The notes under the pieces: model-generated
What the model was told of the DNA's origin: nothing
Database searches by the model: none
What the model saw: only the letters and a program-made list of their open reading frames with translations
Assembly (NCBI RefSeq): GCF_004795835.1
Contig: NZ_CP039249.1
Location: 2,331,001 to 2,395,000, forward strand
DNA: 64,000 nucleotides
Direction: 5' to 3'
Source of the DNA: Sphingomonas sp. PAMC26645
GTDB lineage: Bacteria; Pseudomonadota; Alphaproteobacteria; Sphingomonadales; Sphingomonadaceae
Part shown: positions 48,219 to 63,938 of the stretch, piece after piece
Layout: every line of letters begins with the position of its first letter
How positions within the stretch are numbered: position 1 is the stretch's first letter
Made by a program: the position numbers and the translations under genes

Positions 48219-50747
48219 TTACCGCAGGGAGATGGTTTTCAGCGCTTGTCCAATCGCCACTTGCCGTCCCTCCAAGTGTACAGTGCCGGCAATATTCATC
48301 GATGGAATGACCAAGGTCGACGTTCCGGCGGCTGCGTCTTGAGCGACACTGGTCTGCCTACCCTTCATCCTGGCAGTGCCGGCGCCGTCCCAACCATGGA
48401 CGGTGATCGCGATCCTCTTCCACCACGGCTTGAAGCTACCCTCGGGTTTGGCGAAGTCGATCGACAGGCCGGTGGGGGTGATCGTGCAGCGCACCGTCTG
48501 GCGGAAATAGCCGCGGCGGGTGTACGCCAGCGTGCGGCCATCGTCCTCGTAGAGGGTGCCAACGCAATCCGCGCCGGGATAGACGTCGAGCCGCAGCGGG
48601 CCGTTCGGGGTTTCGCTTGTGCTCTGGACCAAGGGCTGGCGGGGCAGGATCGTGCCGGCGCGGACGAACACGGGCAGGCGATCGAGGCGCGGTGTTTCTG
48701 TCACGCGATCGCCTAGCGTCCGCGCGGTCGGCACGGCTTGCGTCGCAGACTGGATCGGGCCGGCGGCGGCAGGCTCGGGCGTGCCAACGCGCTGGCCGGT
48801 CCAATAGTCGTACCAGCCGCCAGCGGGCAGGCACACGTCGTAGGTCTGCGGCGACTCCGGCTTGGGCGGGGGTGCGATCAGCAGCGACTTGCCGAGTGTG
48901 AACGCCATCGACTGATCGCACGACGCGGTCGCGGCGGCCGGGTAGTCGTAGAAGACCGGGCGCATGATCGGATCGCCGAAGCGCGCGTTCTGGTCCGCCA
49001 GCGCGTAGAAATACGGCATCAGGCGATAACGCTCCTCGATGAAGCGGCGGCGGATCGCGAGATGGTCGGGGCCGTCGACCCAGGGTTCCACGCGAGGTGT
49101 GCCGGTCGCCGAATGGTTGCGGAACACCGGCGTGAACGCGCCGATCTCGGTCCAGCGCGTGAGCAGGTCGGGGCTCGGGCCGCCCGCAAAGCCGCTGACG
49201 TCGGCGGCGCTGTAGCCGAAGCCGGACAGGCCGAGGTTGATGATCTGCTGTACCGACAGCTTGAGGTGATCCCAGGTCGCGCTGTTGTCGCCGGTCCAGG
49301 TGACCGCATAACGCTGCCCGCCAGCATAGCTCGCGCGCGTCATCACGAACGGGCGTTCGTCGGGACGCAGTTTGAGCAGGCCGTCATATGTCGCGCGCGT
49401 GTTGAGCATGCCATAGACGTTGTGCGCCTCGCGGTGATCGGTGATGCGCGCCGCGAAATCGTCACTGTCGATACGGTGACGGGTGTCGAGCGGCATCGTC
49501 TTGGTCGGCGTTTCGAAGATCGCTGGCTCGTTCATGTCGTTCCAGAACCCTGCGATTCCGGCGTCGAGGAAGCCCTTGTACTGCGTGCCCCACCAGGTCC
49601 GTGCGGCGGTCTTGGTGAAGTCGGGGAATACCGAAGGGCCAGGCCAGACCGGCGCGACATACGGGGTGCCATCGGCGTTCTTGATGAACGCGTCGGCCTC
49701 CATCCCGCTCTGGTAGGGCGCGTAACCCTGCTCGACCGCGGCGATGTGGAGATCGGTGATCGCGACCAGCTTTATGCCGTCCGCCTTCATCTCGGTGGCG
49801 AGCTTGGGTAGGTCGGGGAAGGTCTTGGCGTCGGTGGTGAAGGGGCGGTTGCGATCCTGATAGCCGATGTCGAGCCAGATGACGTCGGTCGGCACCCGGT
49901 CGCTGCGCAGGCGCGCGGCGATCTGGCGGACCTCGTCGGCGCTGCCATAGCTGTAGCGCGACTGTTGATAGCCGAGCGCCCATTTCGGGGCGAGCGGCGC
50001 GTGGCCGGTCAGGTCGGCATAACGGCGCGTGACCTCGGCCACAGATGGTCCGGCGATGAAATAATAGTCGATCGGGCCGTCGGGGCCGCCGAACGAGAGC
50101 GTCTCGGCGTCGCGGTGGCCGAAGTCGAACCAGGTGCGATAGGTGTTGTCGAGCAGGATGCCGTAGCTGCCACCGGCTCCGCCGCTGCCGATGAAAAACG
50201 GGATAGACTTGTAGATCGGATCGTCCGCACTGCTGAACCCGAACGCGTCGGTGTTCCAGTCCACGAAGCCGTGGCCGCGGCGGTCGAGCCCCTGAGTCTT
50301 GTCGCCGAGGCCGTAGAAATGCTCGGCGATCGGCAGCGTCTTCGCGATCGTGAACGCCTTGCCGTCGGTCGTGACGGGGGCGGCATCGGCGGAGATGACC
50401 TTTCCGTCGAGCGTCTCGAAGGTAATCGCGCCGCCGGCACCGATCCGTACGCGGACGCTGGCGGTGGTGAAACCGTCGGGGGCTGCGCTCACCTTGGCGG
50501 TCTGCTTGCGGGTCGCCGCCGTCACCGCCCAGCTCGCATCCTCGGCGAACGCGCCGTTCTTGGCGACGCGCACGCGGACGAGGCCGTCGGTCATCGCGGT
50601 GATCCGCATGGTCGTCGCGCCTGCACGAACCTCGACGCCGTCATTGCGCGGGGCGAGCGTAGGGGCGGCGAGCGTGGTCGTCTGCGCCTGGACGGGTGCG
50701 CTGCAGATGGCGGCGGTGGCGGCGAGCAGGAGGGCGATGCGTTTCAT
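48219..50747 (-). CDS. exported GH31 alpha-glucosidase
   Basis: A glycoside hydrolase family 31 enzyme of 842 residues. The start at 50747 overlaps the halogenase B stop and gives a signal peptide (IALLLAATAAICSAPVQAQ), so it is periplasmic. After an N-terminal beta domain, the (beta/alpha)8 barrel has WALGYQQSRYSYGS, TDVIWLDIGYQD, the nucleophile aspartate in GFWNDMNEPAIF and the acid/base aspartate in VTWTGDNSATWDHL. C-terminal beta domains follow. The family removes alpha-linked glucose from the non-reducing ends of maltodextrins. Last gene of the maltodextrin operon. Confidence 0.94.
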   Translation of the reverse strand: MKRIALLLAATAAICSAPVQAQTTTLAAPTLAPRNDGVEVRAGATTMRITAMTDGLVRVRVAKNGAFAEDASWAVTAATRKQTAKVSAAPDGFTTASVRVRIGAGGAITFETLDGKVISADAAPVTTDGKAFTIAKTLPIAEHFYGLGDKTQGLDRRGHGFVDWNTDAFGFSSADDPIYKSIPFFIGSGGAGGSYGILLDNTYRTWFDFGHRDAETLSFGGPDGPIDYYFIAGPSVAEVTRRYADLTGHAPLAPKWALGYQQSRYSYGSADEVRQIAARLRSDRVPTDVIWLDIGYQDRNRPFTTDAKTFPDLPKLATEMKADGIKLVAITDLHIAAVEQGYAPYQSGMEADAFIKNADGTPYVAPVWPGPSVFPDFTKTAARTWWGTQYKGFLDAGIAGFWNDMNEPAIFETPTKTMPLDTRHRIDSDDFAARITDHREAHNVYGMLNTRATYDGLLKLRPDERPFVMTRASYAGGQRYAVTWTGDNSATWDHLKLSVQQIINLGLSGFGYSAADVSGFAGGPSPDLLTRWTEIGAFTPVFRNHSATGTPRVEPWVDGPDHLAIRRRFIEERYRLMPYFYALADQNARFGDPIMRPVFYDYPAAATASCDQSMAFTLGKSLLIAPPPKPESPQTYDVCLPAGGWYDYWTGQRVGTPEPAAAGPIQSATQAVPTARTLGDRVTETPRLDRLPVFVRAGTILPRQPLVQSTSETPNGPLRLDVYPGADCVGTLYEDDGRTLAYTRRGYFRQTVRCTITPTGLSIDFAKPEGSFKPWWKRIAITVHGWDGAGTARMKGRQTSVAQDAAAGTSTLVIPSMNIAGTVHLEGRQVAIGQALKTISLR

Positions 50748-52276
50748 ACGTGATCCTTGTGGTCCGCGGCGGCGCGGAGGCGAGAGGCGTGCGACCCGAA
50801 ATTCGATGCGCAACGGGTCAGGAAATCGTCGATCTTCGGCAGGTCGATGGGATCGATATCGGCGCCGGGTGGGATCAGCCGCGCGGCATCGGGAAAGGTG
50901 CCGTAGCCTGCGAACAGGCAGTGCCAGCTGATCGCCGAATAATAGCGGCCGAGCCCGGCGCGATCGATCGCCGCGACCATGTCCGCGCCGGTGAACCAGG
51001 TGGACATCAGCATCTTGAGATCACCGGACAGGGCGTCCACGCCGCGCGCTTCTGCCCAATAGCCGGTCGGATCGTCGTGGCGCTGGTTGAGCCGGTAATG
51101 CGCGACGATGTAATCGCGGACGCCGTCGTAGCGCGCGGCGATGCGCGTGTTGAATGCGGTGCGGACGGCGTCGGCCGCGCCGTCTTGGTCGACCATGTCG
51201 AGGAACGCTTCGACGGTGGCGATCACCAGATGCAGTGCAGTTGCTTCGAGCGGTTCGAGGAAGCCTTGCGCGAGCCCAACCGCGAGTGCGTTGTGCGACC
51301 AGCTGTCGCGGACGCGGCCGACGCGCATCCTGAGGTGGCGCGCTTCGCCGGCCTCGGCGCCGATATGCGCGCGCAGTTCCGCTTCCGCCTGTGTTTCGGT
51401 CAGGTGGCGGCTCGAGTAGACATAGCCGTTGCCGATGCGGCTGGTCAGCGGGATGTGCCACGCCCAGCCGGCCGACAGCGCGGTCGCGCGCGTTTGGCTA
51501 GGGATCGGTGCTCCGGGGGCATGCGCGGTCGGCATCACCACCGCGCGGTCGTTGAACAGCGCGTTGGCGTAGCTGACGAACGGCATTTCGAGCGCGCTGA
51601 AGATCGTGCTGCGAAACCCACTGGCATCGACGAAGAAATCGCCTGCGATACGCTCGCCGTCGGTATCGATCAGTGCGGTGATGTCACCGGTTGAGGCAGT
51701 CTCGACGCTGACGATACGGCGCTGGAGATGGACGACGCCCAGCGTTTCGGTCGCGTGCGCGGCGAGGAAGGCGCCGACCTTGTACGCGTCGAAATGATAG
51801 CCGTAGCTGACCTCGAAGGGGAAGTTTGCGGCAGGCTGCGGCGCGGAGTTCGCAGCGGCGAGGCGGGCAGGGAGCAGGAACTGGTCGGGGTGCGCGTCGA
51901 CGTCGCGGCCGGTGCGTCGGGCCCGCGTGTTGTAGAAGAATTGCGGCGCGGTGTGCCCGTCGAGCGCGGTGGGGAAGGGGTGGAAATAGCGCTCATACCC
52001 CTCGCGGTCCGACCAGCCTTCGAACCCGATCCCGAGCTTGTAGGTCGCATCGCACGCCGGCATCCACTCCGCCTCTGCGATGCCAAGCGTGTCGAAGAAA
52101 TGCTTCAACTGCGGCGTCGACCCTTCGCCGACGCCGACGATGCCGATCTCCGGGCTTTCGACCAGAGTCACGCGGACGCCGCGATCCCGCCAGCGATGCG
52201 CGATTAGGCACGCGGTCATCCACCCGGCGGTGCCCCCGCCGAGGATGACGATATGCTGGCCAAGCCCGTCGATCAC
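50744..52276 (-). CDS. flavin-dependent tryptophan halogenase family protein (halogenase B)
   Basis: A 510-residue member of the tryptophan halogenase family, which needs FADH2 from a separate flavin reductase. FAD-binding GGGTAGW is at 13-19. Catalytic Lys80 (ATYKLGI) corresponds to Lys79 of PrnA. The halogenase signature WxWxIP is at 271-276 (WAWHIP), and Glu344 (LEPLEAT) corresponds to Glu346 of PrnA. All key residues for chlorination or bromination are intact. It has no signal peptide and is cytoplasmic. It sits between the GH13 and GH31 alpha-glucosidase genes, with stop/start overlaps on both sides. The natural substrate of halogenases in sugar operons is unknown; free tryptophan is not assured. 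Confidence 0.93.
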   Translation of the reverse strand: MIDGLGQHIVILGGGTAGWMTACLIAHRWRDRGVRVTLVESPEIGIVGVGEGSTPQLKHFFDTLGIAEAEWMPACDATYKLGIGFEGWSDREGYERYFHPFPTALDGHTAPQFFYNTRARRTGRDVDAHPDQFLLPARLAAANSAPQPAANFPFEVSYGYHFDAYKVGAFLAAHATETLGVVHLQRRIVSVETASTGDITALIDTDGERIAGDFFVDASGFRSTIFSALEMPFVSYANALFNDRAVVMPTAHAPGAPIPSQTRATALSAGWAWHIPLTSRIGNGYVYSSRHLTETQAEAELRAHIGAEAGEARHLRMRVGRVRDSWSHNALAVGLAQGFLEPLEATALHLVIATVEAFLDMVDQDGAADAVRTAFNTRIAARYDGVRDYIVAHYRLNQRHDDPTGYWAEARGVDALSGDLKMLMSTWFTGADMVAAIDRAGLGRYYSAISWHCLFAGYGTFPDAARLIPPGADIDPIDLPKIDDFLTRCASNFGSHASRLRAAADHKDHV

Positions 52277-53886
52277 CGTCGCAGGACCAGCCCGGACAGC
52301 GGCGGCAGCGTCGTCGTGTCGGCGCCATCGGTCGCGAACAGCATGTCGCCGTCAGTGGCAATGCCGGTCGGCCATTCGCGCGCTTCGTCGCCGAGATTGA
52401 ACACGCAGAGCAGCAACTCGCCATCGGACTGCCGCTCGAACGCGATTACCGCATCGTCGCTGTGCACGATCTGCAGGCTGCCGAGCCGCAACGCCGAATG
52501 CGCTTTCCGCGCGGCGATCAGCGCCCGCGTCCAATGCAGCAGCGAGGTCGCGTCCGCTTCCTGCGCGTCAACCGCGATCGCGCGGTGATCTTCCCCGAAC
52601 GGGAGCCACGGCTCGGTGCTGCCGAACCCGAGATCGGGCGCCGCGCCGATCCACGGCATCGGCGTACGTGCGCCGTCTCGCGACAAGGTCAGCGGCCAGT
52701 TCGCGATCGCCTCAGGATCGAGCAGGTCGTCGAACGCGATGTCGACCTGCGTCAAGCCAAGCTCCTCGCCCTGATACAGGAAGATGTTGCCGCGCAACGC
52801 AACGAGCAGCAGGATCTTCATCCGCGCGAACGCGTCGCGCTGGTCGGGGGTGGTCCAGCGCGACACCGCGCGCGGCGCGTCGTGGTTCTCGAACGCCCAG
52901 CTCGGCCAGCCGAGACCCGGCGTATCGGGCCAGTTGCCGACCGCATCGACGATCAGCTCGGGCGTCAGCCGATCCGCATACAGGAAGTCGAACCCGTACG
53001 CGCTGTTGAGCCGGCCGTTGCCGCCGGTAAACAGCTTCATCTCGCGGTCGCTGTCGTCGCCGCCGACTTCGGCGACGGTGAACCCGGCACCATATTCGTC
53101 GAGCAGCGCGCGGATCCGCTCGATGAAACCGACGATATCCGGATGGCTCTGGTTGTGCAGCTTCTGCTGAAAATCGAACGACCGCGTCCGCGCGCGATTG
53201 GTCGCGGGCGCGGGTGGATTGTCGGTCAGCGCCGGGTCGTGCATCGCGAAGTTGATCGCATCGAGGCGGAAGCCATCGACGCCGCGATCGAGCCAGAACC
53301 GCGCGGTCGCGATCAACTCGTCCTGCACCGCGGGGTTGTGCCCGTTGAGCTGCGGCTGGTCCTTGAGGAAATTGTGCATGTAATATTGCCCGCGCCTGGC
53401 ATCCCAGGTCCAGGCGGGGCCGCCGAACACCGACTGCCAGTTCGACGGCGGCGTGCCGTCGGGCTTCGCATCCGCCCAGACATACCAGTCCGCCTTGTCG
53501 CCGCTGCGCGAGGCACGGCTCCGGCGGAACCAGTCATGCTCCTCCGAAGTGTGCGAATAGACCTGATCGACGATGATCTTCAGCCCGAGCGCATGTGCGC
53601 GCGCGATCAGCGCGTCGAAATCGGCGAGCGTGCCGAAGATCGGATCGACGTCGCGGTAATCCGATACGTCGTAGCCGAAATCCTTCATCGGCGACGTGAA
53701 GAACGGCGACAGCCACACCGCGTCGACGCCGAGGCTGGCGACATAGTCGAGATGCGCGGTGATGCCCGGCAGGTCGCCGATCCCGTCGTCGTTCGAGTCC
53801 GCGAAACTCCGGGGATAGATCTGGTAGATCGTCGCGCCCTTCCACCAAGGGTGGTCGGCAACGGACTCAGGTAATCGTGCAGGCAT
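52273..53886 (-). CDS. GH13 alpha-glucosidase, cytoplasmic
   Basis: A GH13 enzyme of 537 residues resembling oligo-1,6-glucosidase/alpha-glucosidase. The start at 53886 overlaps the amylase stop. It has GATIYQIYPRSFADSNDDGIGDL at the N-terminus (split: IYQIYPRSF, DGIGDLPGI), YDVSDYRDVDP, the nucleophile aspartate in DGFRLDAINF, the acid/base glutamate in FTVAEVGGDD and the third carboxylate in FENHDAPR. There is no signal peptide, so it should act on maltose or maltodextrins delivered by the MFS carrier. Stop and start overlaps couple it to the amylase and halogenase B genes. Confidence 0.94.
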   Translation of the reverse strand: MPARLPESVADHPWWKGATIYQIYPRSFADSNDDGIGDLPGITAHLDYVASLGVDAVWLSPFFTSPMKDFGYDVSDYRDVDPIFGTLADFDALIARAHALGLKIIVDQVYSHTSEEHDWFRRSRASRSGDKADWYVWADAKPDGTPPSNWQSVFGGPAWTWDARRGQYYMHNFLKDQPQLNGHNPAVQDELIATARFWLDRGVDGFRLDAINFAMHDPALTDNPPAPATNRARTRSFDFQQKLHNQSHPDIVGFIERIRALLDEYGAGFTVAEVGGDDSDREMKLFTGGNGRLNSAYGFDFLYADRLTPELIVDAVGNWPDTPGLGWPSWAFENHDAPRAVSRWTTPDQRDAFARMKILLLVALRGNIFLYQGEELGLTQVDIAFDDLLDPEAIANWPLTLSRDGARTPMPWIGAAPDLGFGSTEPWLPFGEDHRAIAVDAQEADATSLLHWTRALIAARKAHSALRLGSLQIVHSDDAVIAFERQSDGELLLCVFNLGDEAREWPTGIATDGDMLFATDGADTTTLPPLSGLVLRR

Positions 53887-55688
53887 CAACGAGTCTCCGC
53901 GGCGCAAACGGCATAGCCGAACGCGGGCAGGGTTAGTGTGACACTGCCGGGGGCGGCAGCGCGGGCTGCGCATGTGCCGGCGAGCGTAGTGAAGCGCGTG
54001 GAACCGGTCTCGACCTGCACCGCCTGCGTGATTGGCTTGGCCGACGTGTTGAACGCGAGCAGGGTTTCCGCACCCGTCGTCGGATCGAAGCGCGAAACCG
54101 CAAGTAGACCCGGCGCTTCGCTACGGCTGCGGATGACCGTCCGGCCCCGCGTGAGCGCCGGATGCGTGACGCGCACCTTCGCCAGTTCGGCGATTTGGCG
54201 GAACAGCGGATTGGTCTCGCCGAAGCTTTCGGTCGCGGTCGTCTTGGTCGTGCCGAGCAGGCGGTTGTCGTTTGAGATCGCAACCTTCGACGCGAACATG
54301 TCCTCGCGCGCGTCCTGATCGTTGCCATCGCCGACGAAGCCCTGCTCGTCGCCCGAATAGATCGTCGGCACGCCGCGCAACGTCAGCAGCATCGCGTTCG
54401 ACAGCAGCACGCGCTTCAGCACCTCGTCGTCGGACGCCTGCGGGAACGCCTTCCGCACGAACGTGGCGAACCGCCCGTCGTCGTGGTTGCCCGTGAAGGT
54501 CGGCAGGATTGCCGCGGTGTCGACGCCCTTCGCATACAGCACGTCGCCGTCGAGCAACGCCTCGAACGCATCGGTGCCGCGCGTGCCCGCGACCGTCTCG
54601 ACCACCGCCTGGCGGAACGCGAAGTCGAGCACCGCGGGTAGCTTGTCGACGATCGTGTGCTGCGCGAGCACCGCGGGGCGGACCTCGTGATCGGAGACTT
54701 CGCCGAAGATGTGGAAGTTCAGGATGCCGTTCGCCTGCGCGCGCGTCAGCATCGCCGGCACGAACTGCGCCCAGAATTCGGGGTTCACGTGGCGCGCGGT
54801 GTCGATGCGGAAGCCGTCGACCTTGAACCGGTCGATCCACGATCCGAAGATGTCGATCATCCCGCTCACGACGCGCGGGTTTTCCGTCATGATGTCGTCG
54901 AGCCCCGAGAAATCGCCCAACGTCGAGCTCTCGTTCATGAAAGTCGTGTCGCCGCGATTATGGTAATAGATCGGGTCATTGAGCCACGCCGGCAACTTCA
55001 CATTGCGCTCGGCGGCGGGCACGTACGGCGTGTAGGCATAGGTCGTGTCGGTCAGCCTCGCGAAGTTCGCCGCGGTCTGGACACCGTCTCCGACGAAACC
55101 GGGATTGATCGCCTTGCCGCCGACACCGCCCTTGCGCTGGTACGGATAGGTCGCGCGATCGCGGTACGGGCAGGGCATGCCGACCGCGCATTCGCGGTAC
55201 TGGATCACGTCTGCGGTGTGGTTGATGATGATGTCCATATACACCTTCATCCCGCGCTTGTGGGCGGCATCGACGAAGGCGGTCATGTCGGCATTGGTGC
55301 CGAGATGCGGGTCGACCTGCGTGAAGTCGGTGATCCAGTATCCGTGATAGCCCGCGGATTCGTGGCCCGGCGAACCCTGCACCGCCTTGTTCTTGAAGAT
55401 CGGCCCGAGCCATATCGCGGTCGCGCCGAGATGCTGGATATAGTCGAGCCGCTTGGTCAGGCCCTTCAGGTCGCCGCCGTGATAGAAGCCCTTCGCGGTC
55501 GGATCATAGCCGGTCTTCAGCCGGTCGCCGCCGATCCCGCCGCGGTCATTGCTCGGGTCGGCATTCTCGAACCGGTCGGGCAGGACGAAATAGATCACCT
55601 CGTCCTGCGGCGCACGCGCGCGGTAGTCGACGGGCGGCACGGCGGCCGCGCCGGACAGCGCGAGCAGGATGGCAGTGGCGATGCTCAT
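53886..55688 (-). CDS. exported GH13 alpha-amylase / cyclomaltodextrinase-type enzyme
   Basis: A GH13 enzyme of 600 residues with a short signal peptide (MSIATAILLALSGAAAVPPV), so periplasmic. The catalytic domain shows VIYFVLPDRFENADPSND, FYHGGDLKGLTKRLDYIQHL, DIIINHTADV, the nucleophile in DGFRIDTARHVN, the acid/base glutamate in HIFGEVSD and the third carboxylate in FTGNHDDGRF. A C-terminal beta domain follows. Start 55688 overlaps the halogenase A stop (ATGA). It would cut imported maltodextrins or cyclodextrins into short products for the MFS carrier and the GH31 enzyme. Confidence 0.93.
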   Translation of the reverse strand: MSIATAILLALSGAAAVPPVDYRARAPQDEVIYFVLPDRFENADPSNDRGGIGGDRLKTGYDPTAKGFYHGGDLKGLTKRLDYIQHLGATAIWLGPIFKNKAVQGSPGHESAGYHGYWITDFTQVDPHLGTNADMTAFVDAAHKRGMKVYMDIIINHTADVIQYRECAVGMPCPYRDRATYPYQRKGGVGGKAINPGFVGDGVQTAANFARLTDTTYAYTPYVPAAERNVKLPAWLNDPIYYHNRGDTTFMNESSTLGDFSGLDDIMTENPRVVSGMIDIFGSWIDRFKVDGFRIDTARHVNPEFWAQFVPAMLTRAQANGILNFHIFGEVSDHEVRPAVLAQHTIVDKLPAVLDFAFRQAVVETVAGTRGTDAFEALLDGDVLYAKGVDTAAILPTFTGNHDDGRFATFVRKAFPQASDDEVLKRVLLSNAMLLTLRGVPTIYSGDEQGFVGDGNDQDAREDMFASKVAISNDNRLLGTTKTTATESFGETNPLFRQIAELAKVRVTHPALTRGRTVIRSRSEAPGLLAVSRFDPTTGAETLLAFNTSAKPITQAVQVETGSTRFTTLAGTCAARAAAPGSVTLTLPAFGYAVCAAETR

Positions 55689-57199
55689 GCGCCGAGCCCT
55701 GCCGGTGACGCGCAATGCTGCGCGACGAACGCGGCGTGGTCCTGCATCTGGCCCGCTTCGCGCGCGTTGAGCTTGTCGATCGTGTCCATGAATTCCCCCA
55801 GGTCGCTCGTCGATATCGCGTCGGCCAGCGGGTGGTGGCCCGCCGGCATGATGCCTTGTCCCGCCAGCACCTGAAGCCAGCCAACTTCGGTGAACAGCTC
55901 CTCATGCTCGCGGACGATGTGTCCGTTGCCGCGCCACAGGTCGATCTTCGCGGCGAGCGTGTCGGGGACGGCCATGTCGCGGCACTCGCGCCAGAACGGC
56001 GTGTCGTCGCGCGCCGTCGCCTTGTAGTGGAGGATGATGAAGTCGCGGATGCGTTCGTATTCGAAGTCGCTCTGCCGGTTGAACTCGGTGCGGTCGGCGT
56101 CGGCGATGACGCGGCCAGGCAATAGCTTCAGCAATCGCGAGATCGCCGACTGGATCAGGTGGATGCTGGTGGATTCGAGCGGTTCCATGAACCCCGCGGC
56201 GAGCCCGAGCCCGACGACGTTGCGGTTCCACATCCGCTTGCGGCGGCCGGTGCGGAACGCGATCGTCCGCGGATCGGCCATCGCCGGCGTGTCGAGCCCC
56301 GCCAGCAAGGTCGCGGTCGCCTCGTCCTCGCTCATGTGCGCGCTGGAGAAGACGACGCCGTTGCCCGTGCGGTGCTGCAACGGGATTCGCCACTGCCAGC
56401 CGGCGGGATGCGCGGTCGAGCGCGTGTAGGGCGTGAACTTATTGCTTCGCGCAGACGGCACCGCGATCGCGCGATCACACGGCAGCCAGCGCGTCCAGTC
56501 CTCGTACCCGGTGCCGAGCGCCTCCTCGATCAACAGCCCGCGAAACCCGGTGCAGTCGATATACAGGTCGGCGTCGACGGTGGTGCCGTTCTCCAGCACG
56601 AGGCCGGAGACGTCGCCGCTCTCGCCGTCGCGCGTGACGCGGACGATCTTGCCTTCGATCCGGTTGACGCCGCGCGTTTCCGAATAGCGCCGCAGGTAGC
56701 GCGCGTAGAGCCCCGCATCGAAATGATAGGCGTACGGCATCGACGGCAGCGTCCGCGCGGTACGAGCCGGCCCCCGCTGCATCCGCTCGGCAAGTGCCGC
56801 GTGCGTATTCAGCGAATAGGCGCCGAGCTCGCCGGCCAGCCCGAGCGATCGCGCGCGCAGCCAATATTGGTGGAAGGGCAGCAAGCCGACGTCGCGACCG
56901 ACATCGCCGAACGCGTGCATGTAGCGATGGCCGGGCTTGAACCAGTCGACGAACTCGATGCCGAGCTTGAACGTGCCGCCGGTCGCGCGGAGGAACGCGT
57001 CCTCGTCGAGACCGAGTGCGTCGTTGAACAAATGAATCTGCGGGATCGTCGCCTCGCCCACCCCGACCGTGCCGATCTCGTCGGACTCGATCAGGTCGAT
57101 CTCGTATCCCGTCTCCAGGAACCGAGCGAAGGTCGCCGCTGCCATCCAGCCGGCTGTACCGCCACCGGCGATCACGATACGCAAAGGGTGATTGGCCAT
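55685..57199 (-). CDS. flavin-dependent tryptophan halogenase family protein (halogenase A)
   Basis: A 504-residue member of the tryptophan halogenase family, cytoplasmic. FAD-binding GGGTAGW is at 12-18, GVGEATIP at 46-53, and catalytic Lys78 is in TFKLGI. The WxWxIP signature is at 268-273 (WQWRIP), and Glu342 is in MEPLEST. The start at 57199 (MANHPLRIVIAGGG) puts the FAD motif where the family expects it; the frame is open to 57283, across a strong hairpin, and the longer N-terminus is not family-like. It differs strongly from halogenase B and is therefore not a recent duplicate. It lies between the receptor and alpha-amylase genes. No flavin reductase gene is in the window. Confidence 0.92.
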   Translation of the reverse strand: MANHPLRIVIAGGGTAGWMAAATFARFLETGYEIDLIESDEIGTVGVGEATIPQIHLFNDALGLDEDAFLRATGGTFKLGIEFVDWFKPGHRYMHAFGDVGRDVGLLPFHQYWLRARSLGLAGELGAYSLNTHAALAERMQRGPARTARTLPSMPYAYHFDAGLYARYLRRYSETRGVNRIEGKIVRVTRDGESGDVSGLVLENGTTVDADLYIDCTGFRGLLIEEALGTGYEDWTRWLPCDRAIAVPSARSNKFTPYTRSTAHPAGWQWRIPLQHRTGNGVVFSSAHMSEDEATATLLAGLDTPAMADPRTIAFRTGRRKRMWNRNVVGLGLAAGFMEPLESTSIHLIQSAISRLLKLLPGRVIADADRTEFNRQSDFEYERIRDFIILHYKATARDDTPFWRECRDMAVPDTLAAKIDLWRGNGHIVREHEELFTEVGWLQVLAGQGIMPAGHHPLADAISTSDLGEFMDTIDKLNAREAGQMQDHAAFVAQHCASPAGLGA

Positions 57200-57250
57200 C
57201 GTCCGCGTCCCCGCTTCGAAACCGTCAGGTGCCGCCATCGCGGGGCAAAT

Positions 57251-57274
57251 GCGGGGCGGCGTCAACCGCCCCGC
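57251..57274 (-). terminator. 9-bp GC hairpin between receptor and halogenase A
   Basis: GCGGGGCGG (57251-57259) and CCGCCCCGC (57266-57274) pair perfectly around a six-base loop, nine bases after the receptor stop. In the transcript the hairpin is followed by ATTTG, not a full U-run, so it is better seen as an attenuator or mRNA-stabilising element that lets the receptor be made in excess over the downstream enzymes. Confidence 0.55.
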
Positions 57275-57282
57275 CATCGACA

Positions 57283-60234
57283 TCAGAACTTGTAGGTGAT
57301 GCCGACATAGTAGTCGCGACCATAGCGCTGGTAGTCGATCACCTGGCGCGGGTCGTCGTTCTGGTAGGTCACGAACGGCCGGTCGGTCAGGTTCTTCGCC
57401 TGCGCCAGGATCGCGAAGTTCGCAAGCGGACCGCTCTGGAACTCATAGCCGATCTGCGCATCCAGGATGCCCTCGGACCGTGCCGTGCGATAGGTCGGGT
57501 TGGCCGATAGGCCAGCGACTTCGGCGAGGAAGCTGGAGCGATAGCGATAGTTCGCGCGCGCCTGGAAGCCCCATTTCTCGAAGTAGATCGTGCCGCTGCC
57601 GGTCCACTTGGACAGGCCGGGCAGGGTGATCGCCTCGGTCGGGTTGCTGCCGTACTTGATCGTCGACTGCGTGTAGTTGCCGCTCGCGAAGATGCCGAAG
57701 CCATCGAGCGCCGACGTGATCGCCTTGAACGGCAGCGACACCGTACCTTCGACGCCCAGCACTTCGCCGCGACCGGTGTTGGCGGGCGACGAGACGTTGC
57801 CGATCGTCTGGCCCGCCGCGATCACCTGCGCCTGCTGCGCCGCGGTCAGCGCCGGCAGCAACGCCGAGAAGTCGTAGGGCAGCGAGTTGTTCGGATCGAC
57901 GAAGTCGGTCAGATGCTTGAAATACCCCGACAACGCGACATAGCCGCCCCCGTTGAAATACTTCTCGAACGACAGATCGATGTTGGTCGACTGGTATGGC
58001 TTCAGATTGACGTTGCCACCGGTCGACGTGAACACCGGGAACAGCCCGGCGGGCGTCTGGCCGATGTTGGTCAGGTTGATCGCCACGTCCTGCGTGACAC
58101 GCTCCTGGTCGAGACGCGGACGGACCATCGTCTGCGAGGCGCCGACCTTGACGAAGCCCAGCGGGATCAGTTCGACCGACATCGTCGCCGAGGGCAGGAA
58201 GTTCGTGTATTTCAGCGACTGCTTCACGGGTGCGATCGTCACTGCGCCGCCGACGACGCTGGCGATCTGGCCGGTCGAGCTCTGGTCCGAATGCACCACC
58301 TGCGCACCGATCGATCCCTTGAGCGGCTTGTCGCCGACCAGGCCGTCGATCGTGACCTTGGCATAGCCGGTCCAGACCTTCTCGAGCACGACATTGTCGC
58401 GCACCAGCGCGGACGGACGGCCATCGAACGCCGCGTTGAGCGAGTTGTTGTAGAGATACAGCGGATCGAGCGTCAGCATCTGCGGGATGCCGAGATAATC
58501 GAGCGCCACGTTCTTGCCGAGCAATGCCTCGCTGGGAACGTTGCCGCTCAGTGGCGAGCCACTCGCGACGGTGCAGTTGGTGCCACCGCCGGTCGGGCAG
58601 AGGAAGTACGACGTGTACGCGCTGGTCTTCTTGCGCTGGCTGTAGTTGCCGCCGGCTTCCCAGCCCTTGACGACGCTGTCGGAGAACTCGCCGTTCAGGC
58701 TCGCGCGGAGCGACTTCAGATCATCCTTGAAGCTTGGCCGGTTGAGGAAGCCCGACTGGACGACCTGCTGCGTGCCGTTGTTGCCCCAGCCCTGCGGATC
58801 GGTCAGCTTGAAGATGTTGGTGTTGGTGTAATCGAGCGTCGGCGAGAAGGTGTAGGTGCCGTTGCCGTTCTGCTTGACGGTGACTGTGTCCGCCGCGCCG
58901 CTCTTGGCGAAGCCGGTACCGGTGTTGGTCTCGAGCAGGAAGTCGGTGCGCTTCGCACGGCTCCAGCTCGCATCGACGTTGAGGTGAACCGACTCGGTCA
59001 GCTTGAGGTCGTTGTTCCAGCCGAGCGAGAAATTGTCCGCCTTGCGCTGGTTATAGTCGTTACGCTGCACCGCGAAGACGTTGCCGAACGTCGCGCTGGT
59101 CGCGAAGCCGTCGGCAATTGTCACGCCGGTAGCGGTCGTTCCGCCAGGCGAGGTCGGTGTCGTCAACTGACCAGCCAGCGGGAACTCGATGCCGCGCAGG
59201 ATCTGCGTTTCCTCGAAGTGCGAATACAGCGCATCGAACGTCGAATGGAAGCTGTCGGACGGCTGCCACTCGATCGTGGCGACGCCGCCATAGCGCTTCA
59301 GCCCGTTCGACTGGACGTACGGCTTGGCGCCGTTGAGCAGGAACGGGCTGGTCGCGGTGCCGGCGCCGCTATAGCCCCACGCGTTGTAGCGCTCGTCCTG
59401 CGACGGCGTCTGCGTCGCCGACACGCCGATCGCGATGCCGAGCGTGTCGTTGGCGAACTTGTCGACATAGGTCGCCGACGCGCGATAGCCGTAGCGATCG
59501 CCATCCGGGTTGAGCTTGTCGATGCCGTTCATCTGCGCCCGCGCGCTGACCGCGATGATGCGGTGCGCCTGGTCGAGCGGACGCAGCATGCGCAGGTCGA
59601 CCGTACCGGCGACGCCTGCGGCGATCAGCGACGCGTCGGCCGACTTGTAGACGTTGACGGTCTTGAAGAATTCCGACGGGTACTGGTCGAACTCGACGCC
59701 GCGGTTGTCGCCGGTCGTCACCTGTTCGCGGCCGTTGAGCAGCGTGGTCGAGAAATCGGGGCCGAGGCCGCGGATCGACAGGCGCTGGTCGCGGCCTTCG
59801 AGACGCTGCGCGGTCACGCCGGGCAGGCGAGCGAGCGAGTCCGCGATCGACACGTCGGGCAGCTTGCCGACGTCTTCGGCCGAGATCGAATCGACGATCA
59901 GGACCGACTGGCGCTTGATCTTCGCGGAGGATTCCAGGCCGGCGCGGATACCGGTGACGACGATCTCGTCACCGCCAGCGGCATCGGCCTGGGCTGTGGT
60001 TGGCACGGCATCGGCGGGCTGAGGCGTCGGCGCGGCGACGGTCGGGACCGCGTCGATCTGCGCTGGTGCAGTCGGATTGGCATTTGCCGTGCCCGGCGTC
60101 GCTTGCGCGAACACAGCCTGACCCGGCAGCATCAGAGCAGCGGCAAGCGCGGTCGCGCTGACTTGCAGTGCGAGGCGGCTATGCGCGGAAATGCCGGACG
60201 CGACGCGCAGGCGGCACGGAATAGACTGGCTCAT
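57283..60234 (-). CDS. TonB-dependent receptor of the maltodextrin locus
   Basis: An outer-membrane receptor of 983 residues, first gene of the leftward maltodextrin operon. AAGGGG lies before the ATG. A signal peptide (LAAALMLPGQAVFAQ) is followed by a Pro/Ala-rich spacer, then GGDEIVVTGIRAGLESS and the plug, with DQRLSIRGLGPDFSTTLLNGRE and FFKTVNVYKSADASLIAAGVAGTVD. The barrel ends in GITYKF. This form resembles the Caulobacter maltodextrin receptor group (MalA-like), which works without a SusD partner; none is seen here. The gene order with GH13, GH31, LacI and MFS genes supports maltodextrin as ligand. Confidence 0.93.
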   Translation of the reverse strand: MSQSIPCRLRVASGISAHSRLALQVSATALAAALMLPGQAVFAQATPGTANANPTAPAQIDAVPTVAAPTPQPADAVPTTAQADAAGGDEIVVTGIRAGLESSAKIKRQSVLIVDSISAEDVGKLPDVSIADSLARLPGVTAQRLEGRDQRLSIRGLGPDFSTTLLNGREQVTTGDNRGVEFDQYPSEFFKTVNVYKSADASLIAAGVAGTVDLRMLRPLDQAHRIIAVSARAQMNGIDKLNPDGDRYGYRASATYVDKFANDTLGIAIGVSATQTPSQDERYNAWGYSGAGTATSPFLLNGAKPYVQSNGLKRYGGVATIEWQPSDSFHSTFDALYSHFEETQILRGIEFPLAGQLTTPTSPGGTTATGVTIADGFATSATFGNVFAVQRNDYNQRKADNFSLGWNNDLKLTESVHLNVDASWSRAKRTDFLLETNTGTGFAKSGAADTVTVKQNGNGTYTFSPTLDYTNTNIFKLTDPQGWGNNGTQQVVQSGFLNRPSFKDDLKSLRASLNGEFSDSVVKGWEAGGNYSQRKKTSAYTSYFLCPTGGGTNCTVASGSPLSGNVPSEALLGKNVALDYLGIPQMLTLDPLYLYNNSLNAAFDGRPSALVRDNVVLEKVWTGYAKVTIDGLVGDKPLKGSIGAQVVHSDQSSTGQIASVVGGAVTIAPVKQSLKYTNFLPSATMSVELIPLGFVKVGASQTMVRPRLDQERVTQDVAINLTNIGQTPAGLFPVFTSTGGNVNLKPYQSTNIDLSFEKYFNGGGYVALSGYFKHLTDFVDPNNSLPYDFSALLPALTAAQQAQVIAAGQTIGNVSSPANTGRGEVLGVEGTVSLPFKAITSALDGFGIFASGNYTQSTIKYGSNPTEAITLPGLSKWTGSGTIYFEKWGFQARANYRYRSSFLAEVAGLSANPTYRTARSEGILDAQIGYEFQSGPLANFAILAQAKNLTDRPFVTYQNDDPRQVIDYQRYGRDYYVGITYKF

Positions 60235-60363
60235 GAAATCCCCTTCAGGCGAGATTAATCCCGCGCATCCTCAATTGCTTGTTTTGGTATCCCCGACGTC
60301 GTGCTGACGCGTCGGGTGTCGCAACACGGCTATATTTCGGGTGGAGGCGTTGCAAAAGGGACG

Positions 60364-60377
60364 GGCATACGTATTCA
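60364..60377. promoter_or_regulatory. candidate LacI-family operator, receptor/LacI region
   Basis: GGCATACGTATTCA contains the perfect palindrome ATACGTAT (60367-60374), with the central CpG typical of LacI-family operators. It lies between the divergent receptor and LacI genes, and a related site occurs upstream of the MFS gene. Confidence 0.5.
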
Positions 60378-60446
60378 CTGTTTCATGCAAACCGTGTCTC
60401 TTCAGGACCACGCCCGCCCACAGTGGCGCGGGCAAGGGCGCTGACG

Positions 60447-61535
60447 ATGGGTCGCCGCCCGACATCGTTCGACATCGCGCAACTGGCCGGCGTGTCGCAG
60501 CCGACGGTGTCGCGGGCGTTGCGCGGATCGAAGTCGGTCAACGCGCAGACCCGCCAGCGGATCGAGGCGATCGCGCGCAGCCTGCACTACGCGGTCGACA
60601 AGCACGCCTCGTCGCTACGAAGCCAGTCGGCGAACACACTGGCGCTGCTGTTCTTCGAGGAGCCGGCCGAGGACGAGTCGACGATCAACCCGTTCTTCCT
60701 GTCGATGCTGGGCTCGATCACGCACGCTTGTGCCCGCGCCGGCTACGACCTGCTGATCTCGTTCCAGCAATTGTCGGGCGACTGGCACGTCGATTACCAG
60801 GACAGCCGCAAGGCCGACGGCATCATCCTGCTCGGCTACGGCGATTACGAAGCCTACCGGGCGCGTCTCGATCACCTGACCGAACAGGGTACCAAGGTGG
60901 TGCGCTGGGGCGCGGTCGGGACCGGGCCCGCCGGGATCACGGTCGGCTCGGACAACCGCGGCGGCGGCGAGGCGGCCACCGCGCACCTGATTGCGCGCGG
61001 CCGACGGCGGATCGCGTTCCTGGGCGCCGCGGACGGGCGGTATCCCGAACTGGAGGACCGGTATCGGGGATATCTCGACGCGTTGGCGGCTGCGGGGCTG
61101 ACGGCGGACGCCGCATTGCAGGTCGATGCAATCACCACCGAAGACGCCGGACAGGACGCGATCGCCGAACTCGCGCGCCGCGGCGCCGACTATGACGCCA
61201 TTTTCGCGGCTAGCGACAGCATCGCGATCGGCGCGATGCGCGCGCTGGCGGCCGCAGGGCGACCGATCCCGGACGACGTCGCGATCGTCGGCTTCGACGA
61301 TATCGCCTCGGCGCAACTCACCAACCCGCCGCTGACGACCGTGACGCAGGACGCGCGCCGGGCAGGGGAGGCGCTGGTACGGACGTTGCTGGCGAAACTG
61401 CGCGGCGAAGTGTCCGACGACTCGCCCTTGCCGACCCGACTGGTGATCCGCGCGAGCAGCGGGGCATGGCCCAGCACGATCCTCCCCCGCCAGGGGGAGG
61501 TGGCAGGCGTCAGCCTGACGGAGGGGGCGGCATGA
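60447..61535 (+). CDS. LacI-family transcriptional repressor of the maltodextrin locus
   Basis: A repressor of 362 residues. The N-terminal helix-turn-helix (SFDIAQLAGVSQPTVSRALRG, read in two parts: DIAQLAGVSQ, PTVSRALRG) is followed by the hinge helix (DKHASSLRSQSANTLA) and a periplasmic-binding-protein-like sugar-binding core to about residue 340. ATG 60447 puts the HTH at residues ~7-26, as in the family; the upstream open frame to 60279 is noncoding. The last ~20 residues come from an inverted-repeat element (see 61478-61605). It should repress both divergent operons in the absence of a maltose-type sugar. Confidence 0.92.
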   Translation: MGRRPTSFDIAQLAGVSQPTVSRALRGSKSVNAQTRQRIEAIARSLHYAVDKHASSLRSQSANTLALLFFEEPAEDESTINPFFLSMLGSITHACARAGYDLLISFQQLSGDWHVDYQDSRKADGIILLGYGDYEAYRARLDHLTEQGTKVVRWGAVGTGPAGITVGSDNRGGGEAATAHLIARGRRRIAFLGAADGRYPELEDRYRGYLDALAAAGLTADAALQVDAITTEDAGQDAIAELARRGADYDAIFAASDSIAIGAMRALAAAGRPIPDDVAIVGFDDIASAQLTNPPLTTVTQDARRAGEALVRTLLAKLRGEVSDDSPLPTRLVIRASSGAWPSTILPRQGEVAGVSLTEGAA

Positions 61536-61621: not shown

Positions 61622-62302
61622 TCAGTCGTCGAACAGGAACAGATTGAGCGTCAGCCGCCCGGACAGCGGCTCCGAACTCAGCACCACCTCAGGCGGCAGA
61701 TACGCACAGTGCAGCGTATTTCCCGCATAGATCAGCGCGCGGTTGAAGCGCGCCGGCTGGACCGCGATGCGTTCGTACAATGCCGTGTCGCCGGCGATGT
61801 AGGACGCCTCGGGCATGCCGTGCGCCTGCACGCCCGCCTCCAGCTCTGCCCTGAACCGATCGAGCCGCGACGCATCGACGGTCTCGAACGCCGTCGATCG
61901 CTGGCGGTAGAACGCAGTGCCGCCCTGTTCGCCATGGCCGAGGAATAGCAGCACGGCGATCCGCCCCCGCTCGACGCCGTCGAAATGCGGCAATCGCTGG
62001 ATCGGCGCAAGATCGCCAGGCGCCGTGGTAACGAGCGAATAATAGGCTTCGGATACCGCCAGCGCCGGATCGAGCTCAAAATGCTCCGCCAACAATGGCG
62101 CGATCCGGCGTCGCATCGTCTCGGCGAGGCGCGGCGGCACCTCGGCGCGGACGCCGGGATAATGCGGGCCGATCGGTGCCATCCGCAGGCTCGCCGCATC
62201 CTCGCGCAGTGCGTCCGGGTCGGGCCAGAAATCATCGATCACGATCAGCGGGCGCTGTTCCTCCCCCTGGAGGTGAAGCGTGGTTTTCGGCGTTTGGGTC
62301 AT
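61622..62302 (-). CDS. DUF6445 protein, 2OG-Fe(II) oxygenase-like
   Basis: A cytoplasmic protein of 226 residues that appears to belong to the DUF6445 group. IVIDDFWPDPDALRE begins the domain. RLPHFDGVERGRIAVLLFLG has the His-x-Asp pair of 2-oxoglutarate/Fe(II) oxygenases, and a distal histidine and arginine lie in NTLHCAYLPPE and LSGRLTLNLFLFDD. The start at 62302 follows AAGG; longer frames exist to 62392. It diverges from the MFS gene. Such proteins accompany halogenase-receptor loci in related bacteria, as far as I recall. Oxygenase activity is inferred from the motif only. Confidence 0.75.
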   Translation of the reverse strand: MTQTPKTTLHLQGEEQRPLIVIDDFWPDPDALREDAASLRMAPIGPHYPGVRAEVPPRLAETMRRRIAPLLAEHFELDPALAVSEAYYSLVTTAPGDLAPIQRLPHFDGVERGRIAVLLFLGHGEQGGTAFYRQRSTAFETVDASRLDRFRAELEAGVQAHGMPEASYIAGDTALYERIAVQPARFNRALIYAGNTLHCAYLPPEVVLSSEPLSGRLTLNLFLFDD

Positions 62303-62344
62303 ACCGGCCTTCATGCGGTGTGGCGGCGCGGCGGGGCAAGGTAT

Positions 62345-62358
62345 TCGTATGCATAGTT
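62345..62358. promoter_or_regulatory. candidate LacI-family operator, DUF6445/MFS region
   Basis: The minus strand reads GCATACGAATAC, matching 10 of 12 bases of GCATACGTATTC from the receptor/LacI region. It lies between divergent DUF6445 and MFS start codons. Confidence 0.42.
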
Positions 62359-62438
62359 GTTTTGCCGGTCGCTTGGGGTCAAGCCGGTCCATCAGATCGC
62401 CACGCAGACAAGTGGCGACCGATCAGGAGAGCCGCGTT

Positions 62439-63938
62439 TTGACCGAGAAACCAGTCCAGGGCTTTGCCGGCCTGTGGAACATCAGCTTCGGCTTTTTCGG
62501 GATCCAGATCGGCTTCGCGCTACAGAACGCCAATATGAGCCGGATCTTCCAGACGCTTGGCGGATCGCTCGACGATCTCTCCTATCTATGGGTCGCGGCA
62601 CCGCTGACCGGTCTGCTCGTCCAGCCGATCATCGGCCACTACAGCGATCGCACCTGGACACGTTTCGGCCGCCGCCGTCCGTATTTCTTCGCCGGTGCCG
62701 TCCTCGCAGCGCTCGCGCTGTTCGTGATGCCCGAGGCGAAGATGCTGTGGCTCGCCGCGCTGACGCTGTGGGTGCTCGACGCCTCGGTCAACGTGTCGAT
62801 GGAGCCGTTCCGCGCGTTCGTCGGCGACATGCTGCGCAAGGACCAGCACACTGCGGGCTATGCGCTCCAGACCGCGTTCATCGGCACGGGCGCAGTCGTC
62901 GGCTCGATCTTTCCGTTCGCGCTCGCGCATCTCGGCGTGTCGGGCGATGCGCTGGCGGGTGTTCCCGACACCGTGCGCTACAGCTTCTGGTTCGGCGGCG
63001 CGGCATTGCTGCTCGCAGTCCTGTGGACGGTCGGCAACACGCGCGAATACAGCCCCGAACAGATGGCATCGTTCGCTGAATCCGACCGTGACGAGGCGCA
63101 CAGCGTTCCGGTCCGCGCGCTTGCCAGTCGCGGCTTCGCGACCAGCATCGCCTGGATCGTCGCCGGCATAGCGGTCGTGGTCGCGGTGCCCGAACTGGCG
63201 TTGCAGAAAGAAGTGTACCTGCTCGGCGGCCTGCTCGTAGCCTATGGCGGCGCCAGCCTCGCGGCCATACTCCTCGCGCGTGGCGGCAATGTCGACAACG
63301 CGCTGAGCCAGATCGTCGGCGACTTTGCCGCGATGCCCAGCGTCATGAAGCGCCTGGCGCTCGTCCAGTTCTTCAGCTGGTCCGCGCTGTTCATCATGTG
63401 GATCTTCACCACGCCCGTCGTCGCCCAGTACATGTACGGGTCGAGCGACGCGACGAGCGCCGCCTACAATGCGGGCAGCGATTGGGTCGGTGTGCTGTTC
63501 GCAGTCTACAATGCCGTCGCCGCGCTGGTCGCGTTACTGATACTGCCGCGGTTGGCCAGACGGATCGGCCGGGTCAAAACGCATATCGCCTGCCTGCTGT
63601 GCGGTGCCGCGGGGTTTGCGAGCTTCCTCGTGGTGCGCGATCCGACGATGCTGATCGTCAGCGAAGTCGGCGTCGGGATTGCCTGGGCGTCGATCCTCGC
63701 CATGCCCTACGCGATCCTCGCCTCCAGCCTGCCGCAAGCCAAGCTCGGTATCTACATGGGGTTGTTCAACATCTTCATCGTTCTTCCGCAGCTGCTGGTT
63801 GCCACGCTGATGGGATCGGTGCTGAAGGCATTCTTCCCGACCGAACCGATCTGGACGATGGCATTCGCCGCCATCGTGATGATTCTCGCAGCCCTCGCGA
63901 TGCTGCGCGTCCCCGAGATTCCCGATAAGTTCTCCTGA
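62439..63938 (+). CDS. MFS sugar (maltose-type) transporter
   Basis: An inner-membrane carrier of 499 residues with about 12 hydrophobic segments. It belongs to the MFS group that includes maltose/sucrose carriers (SLC45-like): GLWNISFGFFGIQIGFALQNANMSRIFQ at the start (split: GLWNISFGFFG, GFALQNANMSRIFQ), the loop motif GHYSDRTWTRFGRRRPYF and PFRAFVGDMLRK. The start is taken as TTG 62439, with AGGAGA nine bases upstream; the longer frame to 62280 crosses the divergent promoter region. It would move maltose or small maltodextrins from periplasm to cytoplasm for the GH13 alpha-glucosidase. Confidence 0.92.
   Translation: MTEKPVQGFAGLWNISFGFFGIQIGFALQNANMSRIFQTLGGSLDDLSYLWVAAPLTGLLVQPIIGHYSDRTWTRFGRRRPYFFAGAVLAALALFVMPEAKMLWLAALTLWVLDASVNVSMEPFRAFVGDMLRKDQHTAGYALQTAFIGTGAVVGSIFPFALAHLGVSGDALAGVPDTVRYSFWFGGAALLLAVLWTVGNTREYSPEQMASFAESDRDEAHSVPVRALASRGFATSIAWIVAGIAVVVAVPELALQKEVYLLGGLLVAYGGASLAAILLARGGNVDNALSQIVGDFAAMPSVMKRLALVQFFSWSALFIMWIFTTPVVAQYMYGSSDATSAAYNAGSDWVGVLFAVYNAVAALVALLILPRLARRIGRVKTHIACLLCGAAGFASFLVVRDPTMLIVSEVGVGIAWASILAMPYAILASSLPQAKLGIYMGLFNIFIVLPQLLVATLMGSVLKAFFPTEPIWTMAFAAIVMILAALAMLRVPEIPDKFS

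Follow-up and report, generated by a model that had tools for sequence, protein, structure and literature searches.

Two flavin-dependent halogenases of separate lineages in a maltodextrin-type locus of Sphingomonas, with candidate links to a TonB-dependent receptor and to glycoside hydrolases

The genome of Sphingomonas sp. PAMC26645 is a single contig of 4.28 Mb (NZ_CP039249.1). We analyzed a stretch of 64,000 nucleotides of it (positions 2,331,001 to 2,395,000, hereafter the window), in which two unlike flavin-dependent halogenases, HalA and HalB, are encoded within a sugar-utilization operon and appear to keep different genomic company. The operon lies on the minus strand in the order TonB-dependent receptor (TBDR)–halA–GH13a–GH13b–halB–GH31; the LacI and MFS genes lie on the opposite strand and the DUF6445 gene on the strand of the operon (Table 1). 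An earlier note on this DNA had reported halogenase motifs in both proteins and overlapping stop and start codons joining their genes to GH13 and GH31 genes. Both observations hold, the junctions reading ATGA (halA/GH13a), TGATG (GH13a/GH13b), GTGA (GH13b/halB) and ATGA (halB/GH31). With the upstream ATG of halA, the TBDR/halA junction reads TGATG; starting halA at Met29 would instead separate the two genes by about 84 bases. The span of that note (50744..57199) omits the receptor (57283–60234) and the LacI, DUF6445 and MFS genes, which matter for what follows.

The TIGR01782-type receptor, alpha-glucan hydrolases, LacI regulator and MFS transporter place the locus with the MalA-type carbohydrate-utilization (CUT) loci, known from MalA of Caulobacter; in a term search, the main text of the paper on such loci (PMC1790865) did not contain the word halogenase. 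By eye, the N-termini of GH31 and GH13a resemble signal peptides, and none was seen in HalA, HalB or GH13b, the last being likely a cytosolic alpha-glucosidase. Among nine locus proteins scanned against Pfam no flavin reductase was found, so a housekeeping reductase would have to supply FADH2. The same proteins included no recognizable biosynthesis gene product, and no secondary-metabolite cluster was recognized around HalB. When the locus was compared with MibH (5uao), the lanthipeptide tryptophan halogenase, no lanthipeptide gene was recognized among the scanned proteins, small precursor genes not having been searched for. The tight junctions leave little room for a precursor peptide gene inside the operon; a distant one is possible, no systematic search for it having been made.

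Both halogenases match the Pfam family Trp_halogenase (645.6 bits for HalA and 398.7 for HalB, against a cut-off of 21), and GGGTAGW, the catalytic lysine, the glutamate and WxWxIP are found in each. Across the HalA clade, the lysine, the glutamate and WxWxIP are kept in 76/76 sequences; in the HalB clade the glutamate and WxWxIP are kept in 83/83 and the lysine in 82/83, with one gap. In the alignment, the GxGxxG columns are likewise kept in both clades, save in one gapped HalB-clade sequence. The histidine and phenylalanine beside what we take to be the PrnA-type indole site occur in 76/76 HalA-clade sequences and, each, in 82/83 of the HalB clade. The residue after the catalytic glutamate is alanine in all 83 HalB-clade sequences and serine in HalA. 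Compared with 14 close loci, the ratio of nonsynonymous to synonymous substitution (dN/dS) was 0.078 for halA and 0.120 for halB, while other locus genes ranged from 0.085 (LacI) to 0.151 (receptor), LacI and GH13a being compared in 10 loci and the MFS gene, with a single doubtful match, being left out. On these ratios both halogenases are under purifying selection, which together with the kept motifs rules out pseudogenes, and we consider them very probably real halogenases.

The AlphaFold2 model of HalA has a pLDDT of 89.6, with residues 1–29 of the longer form below 50, and its halogenase fold spans the whole chain. Its nearest structures, those of Xcc4156 (6y1w), a Pseudoalteromonas L11 halogenase (9luq) and BrvH (6frl), are 46–48% identical (TM 0.87–0.90 by query length) and share the whole-chain fold and all motifs, including the serine after the catalytic glutamate (EPLES in BrvH and 9luq, EPIES in Xcc4156). 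HalB also has a whole-chain halogenase fold. As to the loop with which free-tryptophan halogenases (PrnA, RebH, PyrH class) hold the amino and carboxyl groups of their substrate, the HMMER alignment of HalA to PrnA (4z44) ends at residue 444 of that chain, and the last 118 residues of HalB, searched alone, gave no halogenase match. The best solved relatives of HalB are 32–34% identical: it shares 33–34% identity with the tryptophan 5-/6-halogenases PyrH, SttH and AbeH and 29–33% with 6frl, 6y1w and 9luq in structural alignments, and it has EPLEA where four aligned structures have EPLES. Judged by these comparisons, HalA is of the BrvH/Xcc4156 type and HalB is not, the latter forming a separate lineage that is uncharacterized as far as solved structures go. 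The two fall in different clades of a 192-sequence tree, built without the BrvH and Xcc4156 sequences, which rules out a recent duplication. The BrvH gene also has an adjacent second halogenase gene, 42.7% identical (PMC5945002, accessible text); the word TonB is absent from the main text of the BrvH and Xcc4156 papers, which describes no receptor context (PMC5945002; PMC7336383).

The distribution of the pair was surveyed in named genomes, keeping the best 80 of 175 HalB relatives. HalA is co-present in 64 of these 80 HalB loci and in 60 of the 69 that exceed 18 kb, and 7 of the 16 loci without HalA lie on stretches of at most 18 kb. The pair occurs in Sphingomonadaceae, Erythrobacter-type genomes, Parvularcula, Marinicaulis and Gammaproteobacteria including Arenicella, and HalB itself is 89–95% identical to the proteins of Sphingomonas sp. 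strains, S. faeni, S. albertensis and S. aurantiaca. Since it recurs in 64/80 loci and dN/dS is low for both genes, the pairing is more than chance and, by this distribution, old and conserved. A class-wide search with HalB at E 1e-110, scoring up to five candidates per genome, gave a match in one of 289 evenly drawn genomes, namely this one. Hydrolase content varies around the pair: GH13a was not seen in four close loci (L016, L021, L024, L034) that retain both halogenases, and L043 and L052 have a GH97 gene between GH13b and HalB, GH31 not being seen there. Each halogenase also occurs alone. Three genomes (G002, G017, G023) carry HalA in a receptor locus and have no HalB-clade match, their best hits to a HalB query having E values of 1.8e-79 to 9.8e-81, against 1e-143 or better for HalB orthologues. 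Conversely, in Pseudoalteromonas L082, L085 and L087 HalB shares a locus with a receptor, GH13 and MFS genes (and GH15 in L082), and the best HalA match in these three genomes is 35–36% identical. HalA and HalB are thus separable.

Some HalB relatives depart from this pattern. In two Lysobacter-type genomes (L060 6954–11482 and L080 5400–10008) they are not in sugar loci; in both genomes the genes immediately before them encode a POT peptide transporter and an amidohydrolase, and the two amidohydrolases are 73% identical to each other. A sister group of HalB (L160, L161, L184, L186, L188, L189, L199 and L011) has WxWxIG for WxWxIP and alanine after the glutamate, and six of its eight members have a SapC gene in the locus. 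On an Opitutia contig (L084 9245–11509), a small 2OG-FeII_Oxy_3 gene precedes a HalB relative. On one metagenome contig (L061 10001–11497), the HalB reading contains two stop codons, from a sequencing error or a broken gene.

The two enzymes differ in their neighbors. HalA lies downstream of the TBDR gene, on the same strand and within 300 bp, in 63 of 64 loci, whereas HalB lies within 300 bp of it in 5 of 68, downstream in three of these. In the rearranged loci L046, L067, L076 and L078, the receptor and HalA genes still go together on a common strand, and the GH13 genes are found past the receptor on the opposite strand. Co-divergence was assessed by partial distance correlation in 47 loci with all five proteins, thinned to 28. 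The TBDR–HalA value was about 0.55 (5–95% range 0.32 to 0.68), compared with about 0.10 for TBDR–HalB, 0.21 for HalA–HalB and 0.42 for GH13b–HalB. Adjacency was controlled with two other neighbors of the receptor: in 16 thinned loci the median for TBDR–LacI, on the receptor's other side, was −0.04 against 0.82 for TBDR–HalA, and in 14 loci TBDR–DUF6445 reached 0.08 against 0.45 for TBDR–HalA. From these distances, which are no proof of interaction, we infer that HalA is probably tied to the maltodextrin receptor and HalB to the hydrolase block. Literature searches covering open-licence papers found none describing such a division between receptor-linked and hydrolase-linked halogenases, and none connecting these halogenases with loci for maltodextrin or TonB receptors (including PMC8269204, PMC10919026 and PMC11337851, as far as their accessible text goes).

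The association with receptors extends beyond this locus. Three complete genomes contain 29 PF04820 genes, 11 of them in this genome, and 39 receptors of the TIGR01782 (TonB-Xanth-Caul) type. Of the 29 halogenase genes, 26 have such a receptor within 6 kb, whereas 2000 rotations placed 1.5 there on average and never more than 14. The hydrolases beside such receptors vary (GH3 and GH5 in L009, GH3 and SASA in L011, GH13 in L012), so the link is to the receptors and not to maltodextrin as such. In a 175-receptor tree, halogenase linkage appears and disappears within several clades. We also counted companions around receptors resembling this one in 18 genomes of the same genus. The 80 regions chosen for that resemblance include eight incomplete ones, and two pairs of them overlap (L176/L201 and L189/L240). 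A halogenase lies within 6 kb in 30 of the 80, and SapC, Cupin_8 or DUF6445 is found near 18 of these 30 receptors versus 1 of the other 50 (Fisher P 4e-9). In 35 DUF6445 sequences PHfD, LH and GRLTlN are conserved, an HxD...H...R pattern that is presumably that of Fe(II)/2-oxoglutarate oxygenases, which suggests that DUF6445 may be such an oxygenase.

Four loci (L009, L010, L162 and L236) with three or four halogenase-family genes each contain one member of a separate degenerate clade, in which the catalytic lysine is replaced in 4/4 sequences and the glutamate in 3/4; two members tested still score 231 and 288 Pfam bits. These paralogues could be scaffold or regulatory subunits in their own loci, and none accompanies the HalA/HalB pair of the window. 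In L010 (G000 C1 1587336–1593107), four consecutive halogenase-family genes diverge from a single TonB receptor gene, and a Cupin_8 gene is close by.

Table 1. Genes of the halogenase locus (positions in the window) and degenerate halogenase-family members at other loci (positions in the named locus).
Feature	Position	Strand	Details
GH31 alpha-glucosidase-type enzyme	48219..50813	-	Pfam GH31; ATGA overlap with halB stop; likely start ATG 50747
HalB, separate-lineage putative flavin-dependent halogenase, EPLEA signature	50744..52276	-	GTG start
GH13b alpha-amylase-family enzyme	52273..53973	-	Pfam Alpha-amylase, 389.8 bits; TGATG junction; likely start 53886
GH13a alpha-amylase-family enzyme	53886..55715	-	Pfam Alpha-amylase, 211.9 bits; ATGA junction; likely start 55688
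HalA, BrvH/Xcc4156-type putative flavin-dependent halogenase	55685..57283	-	Pfam PF04820, 645.6 bits; start 57283 or Met29 at 57199
MalA-type TonB-dependent receptor (TIGR01782 class), first gene of the operon	57283..60234	-	Pfam Plug; TIGR01782, 511.7 bits, above cut-off
Divergent LacI-family regulator	60279..61535	+	Pfam LacI, Peripla_BP_3; start is the longest possible, real start may be internal
DUF6445 protein, HxD...H...R pattern	61622..62392	-	Pfam DUF6445
MFS sugar-type transporter	62280..63938	+	Pfam MFS_1, MFS_2; start may be internal
Degenerate halogenase, L009	9563-10996		Clustered with intact halogenases near TonB receptor
Degenerate halogenase, L010	12223-13800		Clustered with intact halogenases near TonB receptor
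Degenerate halogenase, L162	~3071	-	Clustered with intact halogenases near TonB receptor
Degenerate halogenase, L236	~16982	-	Clustered with intact halogenases near TonB receptor

Several observations weigh against the explanation favored below. In the DUF6445 control the TBDR–HalA value of 0.45 has a range of −0.13 to 0.80, which includes zero, and HalA pairs equally with DUF6445 itself (0.46, 0.16 to 0.69; 14 loci). Both adjacency controls rest on few loci, with collinear distances (TBDR–GH13b about −0.5). Co-divergence of neighbors may stem from co-transfer; because LacI is transcribed the opposite way, a block transfer of receptor and HalA is possible in spite of that control. The companion count is uncorrected for kinship, 8 of its 18 positive regions (L165–L172) being orthologues of this locus. 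Furthermore, L178 and L183 carry a same-type receptor with GH13, LacI and MFS genes and, in the stretch examined, no halogenase, and L181 is a similar MalA-type receptor locus; halogenases thus look dispensable for such a locus. When 68 MalA-type receptors with a halogenase were compared with five lacking one, of which one sits at a contig end, no aromatic column was kept in the former and lost in the latter. Just three of 211 conserved columns (I, Q and L) have gone from most of those five. With no halogenase-specific W, Y, F or H column, the receptor itself is unsupported as halogenation target. A comparison of 38 aligned receptors did reveal one plug column that is aromatic in 14/14 halogenase-linked versus 6/24 unlinked receptors, and a tryptophan column in 11/14 versus 3/24. 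The 14 linked receptors all fall in one part of the receptor tree, which separates linked from unlinked, and we read these differences as kinship and not function.

Flavin-dependent halogenases use reduced flavin, O2 and halide to form hypohalous acid, which passes by way of the catalytic lysine to an electron-rich aromatic ring. Our leading guess is that this ring belongs to a residue of a peptide or protein. HalA and HalB would both act in the cytosol, as the lack of a signal peptide visible by eye suggests. HalA would serve the receptor arm: some peptide or protein that is made together with the receptor, or imported with it, would receive a halogen, by analogy probably bromine, on an indole or another aromatic side chain; HalB would serve the hydrolase and uptake arm, on a second acceptor; and DUF6445, SapC or JmjC-type companions may work on the same class of acceptor. 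That the two are catalytically competent FADH2-dependent halogenases of separate lineages with two jobs, divided in this way and acting on peptide or protein, is a reading we favor tentatively, at somewhat less than an even chance. The accessible text on the nearest characterized relatives speaks for it: neither BrvH nor Xcc4156 halogenates free tryptophan, indole may not be the natural substrate of BrvH, a peptide acceptor has been proposed on account of a MibH-like active site, and the natural substrates of enzymes of this type are given as unknown (PMC5945002; PMC7336383). In a transposon screen of Sphingomonas sp. LM7 on glucose medium, one insertion in a tryptophan halogenase gene was found among 250 mutants with altered colony morphology (PMC11340318, accessible text).

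Alternatively, both enzymes might halogenate small free aromatics such as indole, indole-acetate or phenolics, as a defence or signal once a carbohydrate source has been found. BrvH and Xcc4156 do use free indole in vitro (PMC5945002; PMC7336383, as far as accessible), and the 11 family members in this genome adjoin receptors with differing hydrolases, as if the recipient sugar were immaterial. Yet the activity of BrvH on indole is low (2.5 mU/mg; PMC5945002, accessible text), the scanned proteins offer no biosynthesis gene, and co-divergence of HalA with the receptor would not be expected, so that we regard this explanation as possible but improbable. Association with receptors would also fit enzymes that detoxify or use compounds such as aromatic glycosides or peptides, taken in alongside the sugar by the receptor or by uptake systems, as would the HalB relatives beside a peptide transporter and amidohydrolase in L060 and L080. 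Maltodextrin, however, lacks aromatic groups, enzymes of this kind adjoin receptors with GH3/GH5, GH3/SASA and GH13 genes, and halogenation would be an unusual first catabolic step; this seems distinctly unlikely.

Two further explanations are very improbable in our view. Halogenation could have been lost, leaving flavin oxidases or monooxygenases that release, for instance, hypohalite or H2O2 close to the receptor. The flavin halogenase family is known to show uncoupled reduced-flavin chemistry, and alanine replaces serine after the glutamate throughout the HalB clade, but the lysine, glutamate and both tryptophans are kept almost without exception, and a plain oxidase would not need them. 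The earlier note had also raised a heteromeric function, and the pairing in 60/69 of the longer loci, together with degenerate paralogues that make hetero-oligomers conceivable elsewhere, gives a single heteromeric HalA–HalB enzyme some appeal. The HalA-only genomes (G002, G017, G023) and the three Pseudoalteromonas genomes without a close HalA relative speak against it, as does the HalA–HalB partial correlation of just 0.21; an obligate heteromer is ruled out by these genomes, and scarcely any chance is left to the heteromer in general.

Overall, the observation of the earlier note is confirmed and its interpretation is supported in part. Its proposal that the unlike halogenases serve different purposes is upheld as probable. 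A tie to sugar uptake stands insofar as HalA goes with a maltodextrin receptor, but the general tie is to TonB-dependent receptors (26/29) and HalB follows the hydrolases. Similarly, the halogenases are conserved in maltodextrin-type loci, but HalB relatives in the two Lysobacter-type genomes occur outside sugar loci.

The enzyme class is known; what is new, as far as gene neighborhoods and protein distances indicate, is the partnering of HalA with the receptor and of HalB with GH13b. More broadly, alpha- and gammaproteobacterial TonB-dependent receptors might have a dedicated protein- or peptide-modifying system, an idea we consider unlikely. Such a system would comprise a receptor-matched halogenase of the HalA type and a second, hydrolase- or uptake-matched one of the HalB type, with dead halogenase paralogues as possible partners at other loci and 2-oxoglutarate/JmjC-type oxygenases (DUF6445, Cupin_8, perhaps SapC), and its target would be a protein or peptide linked to the receptor, with side chains that become halogenated and hydroxylated. 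Two lineages with different partners, and natural loci that have either halogenase alone, both or none, provide a narrow setting in which to seek the acceptor of a halogenase gene group that is abundant in these genomes. Receptor-linked protein halogenation, if found, would to our knowledge add a new kind to the protein modifications of bacteria.

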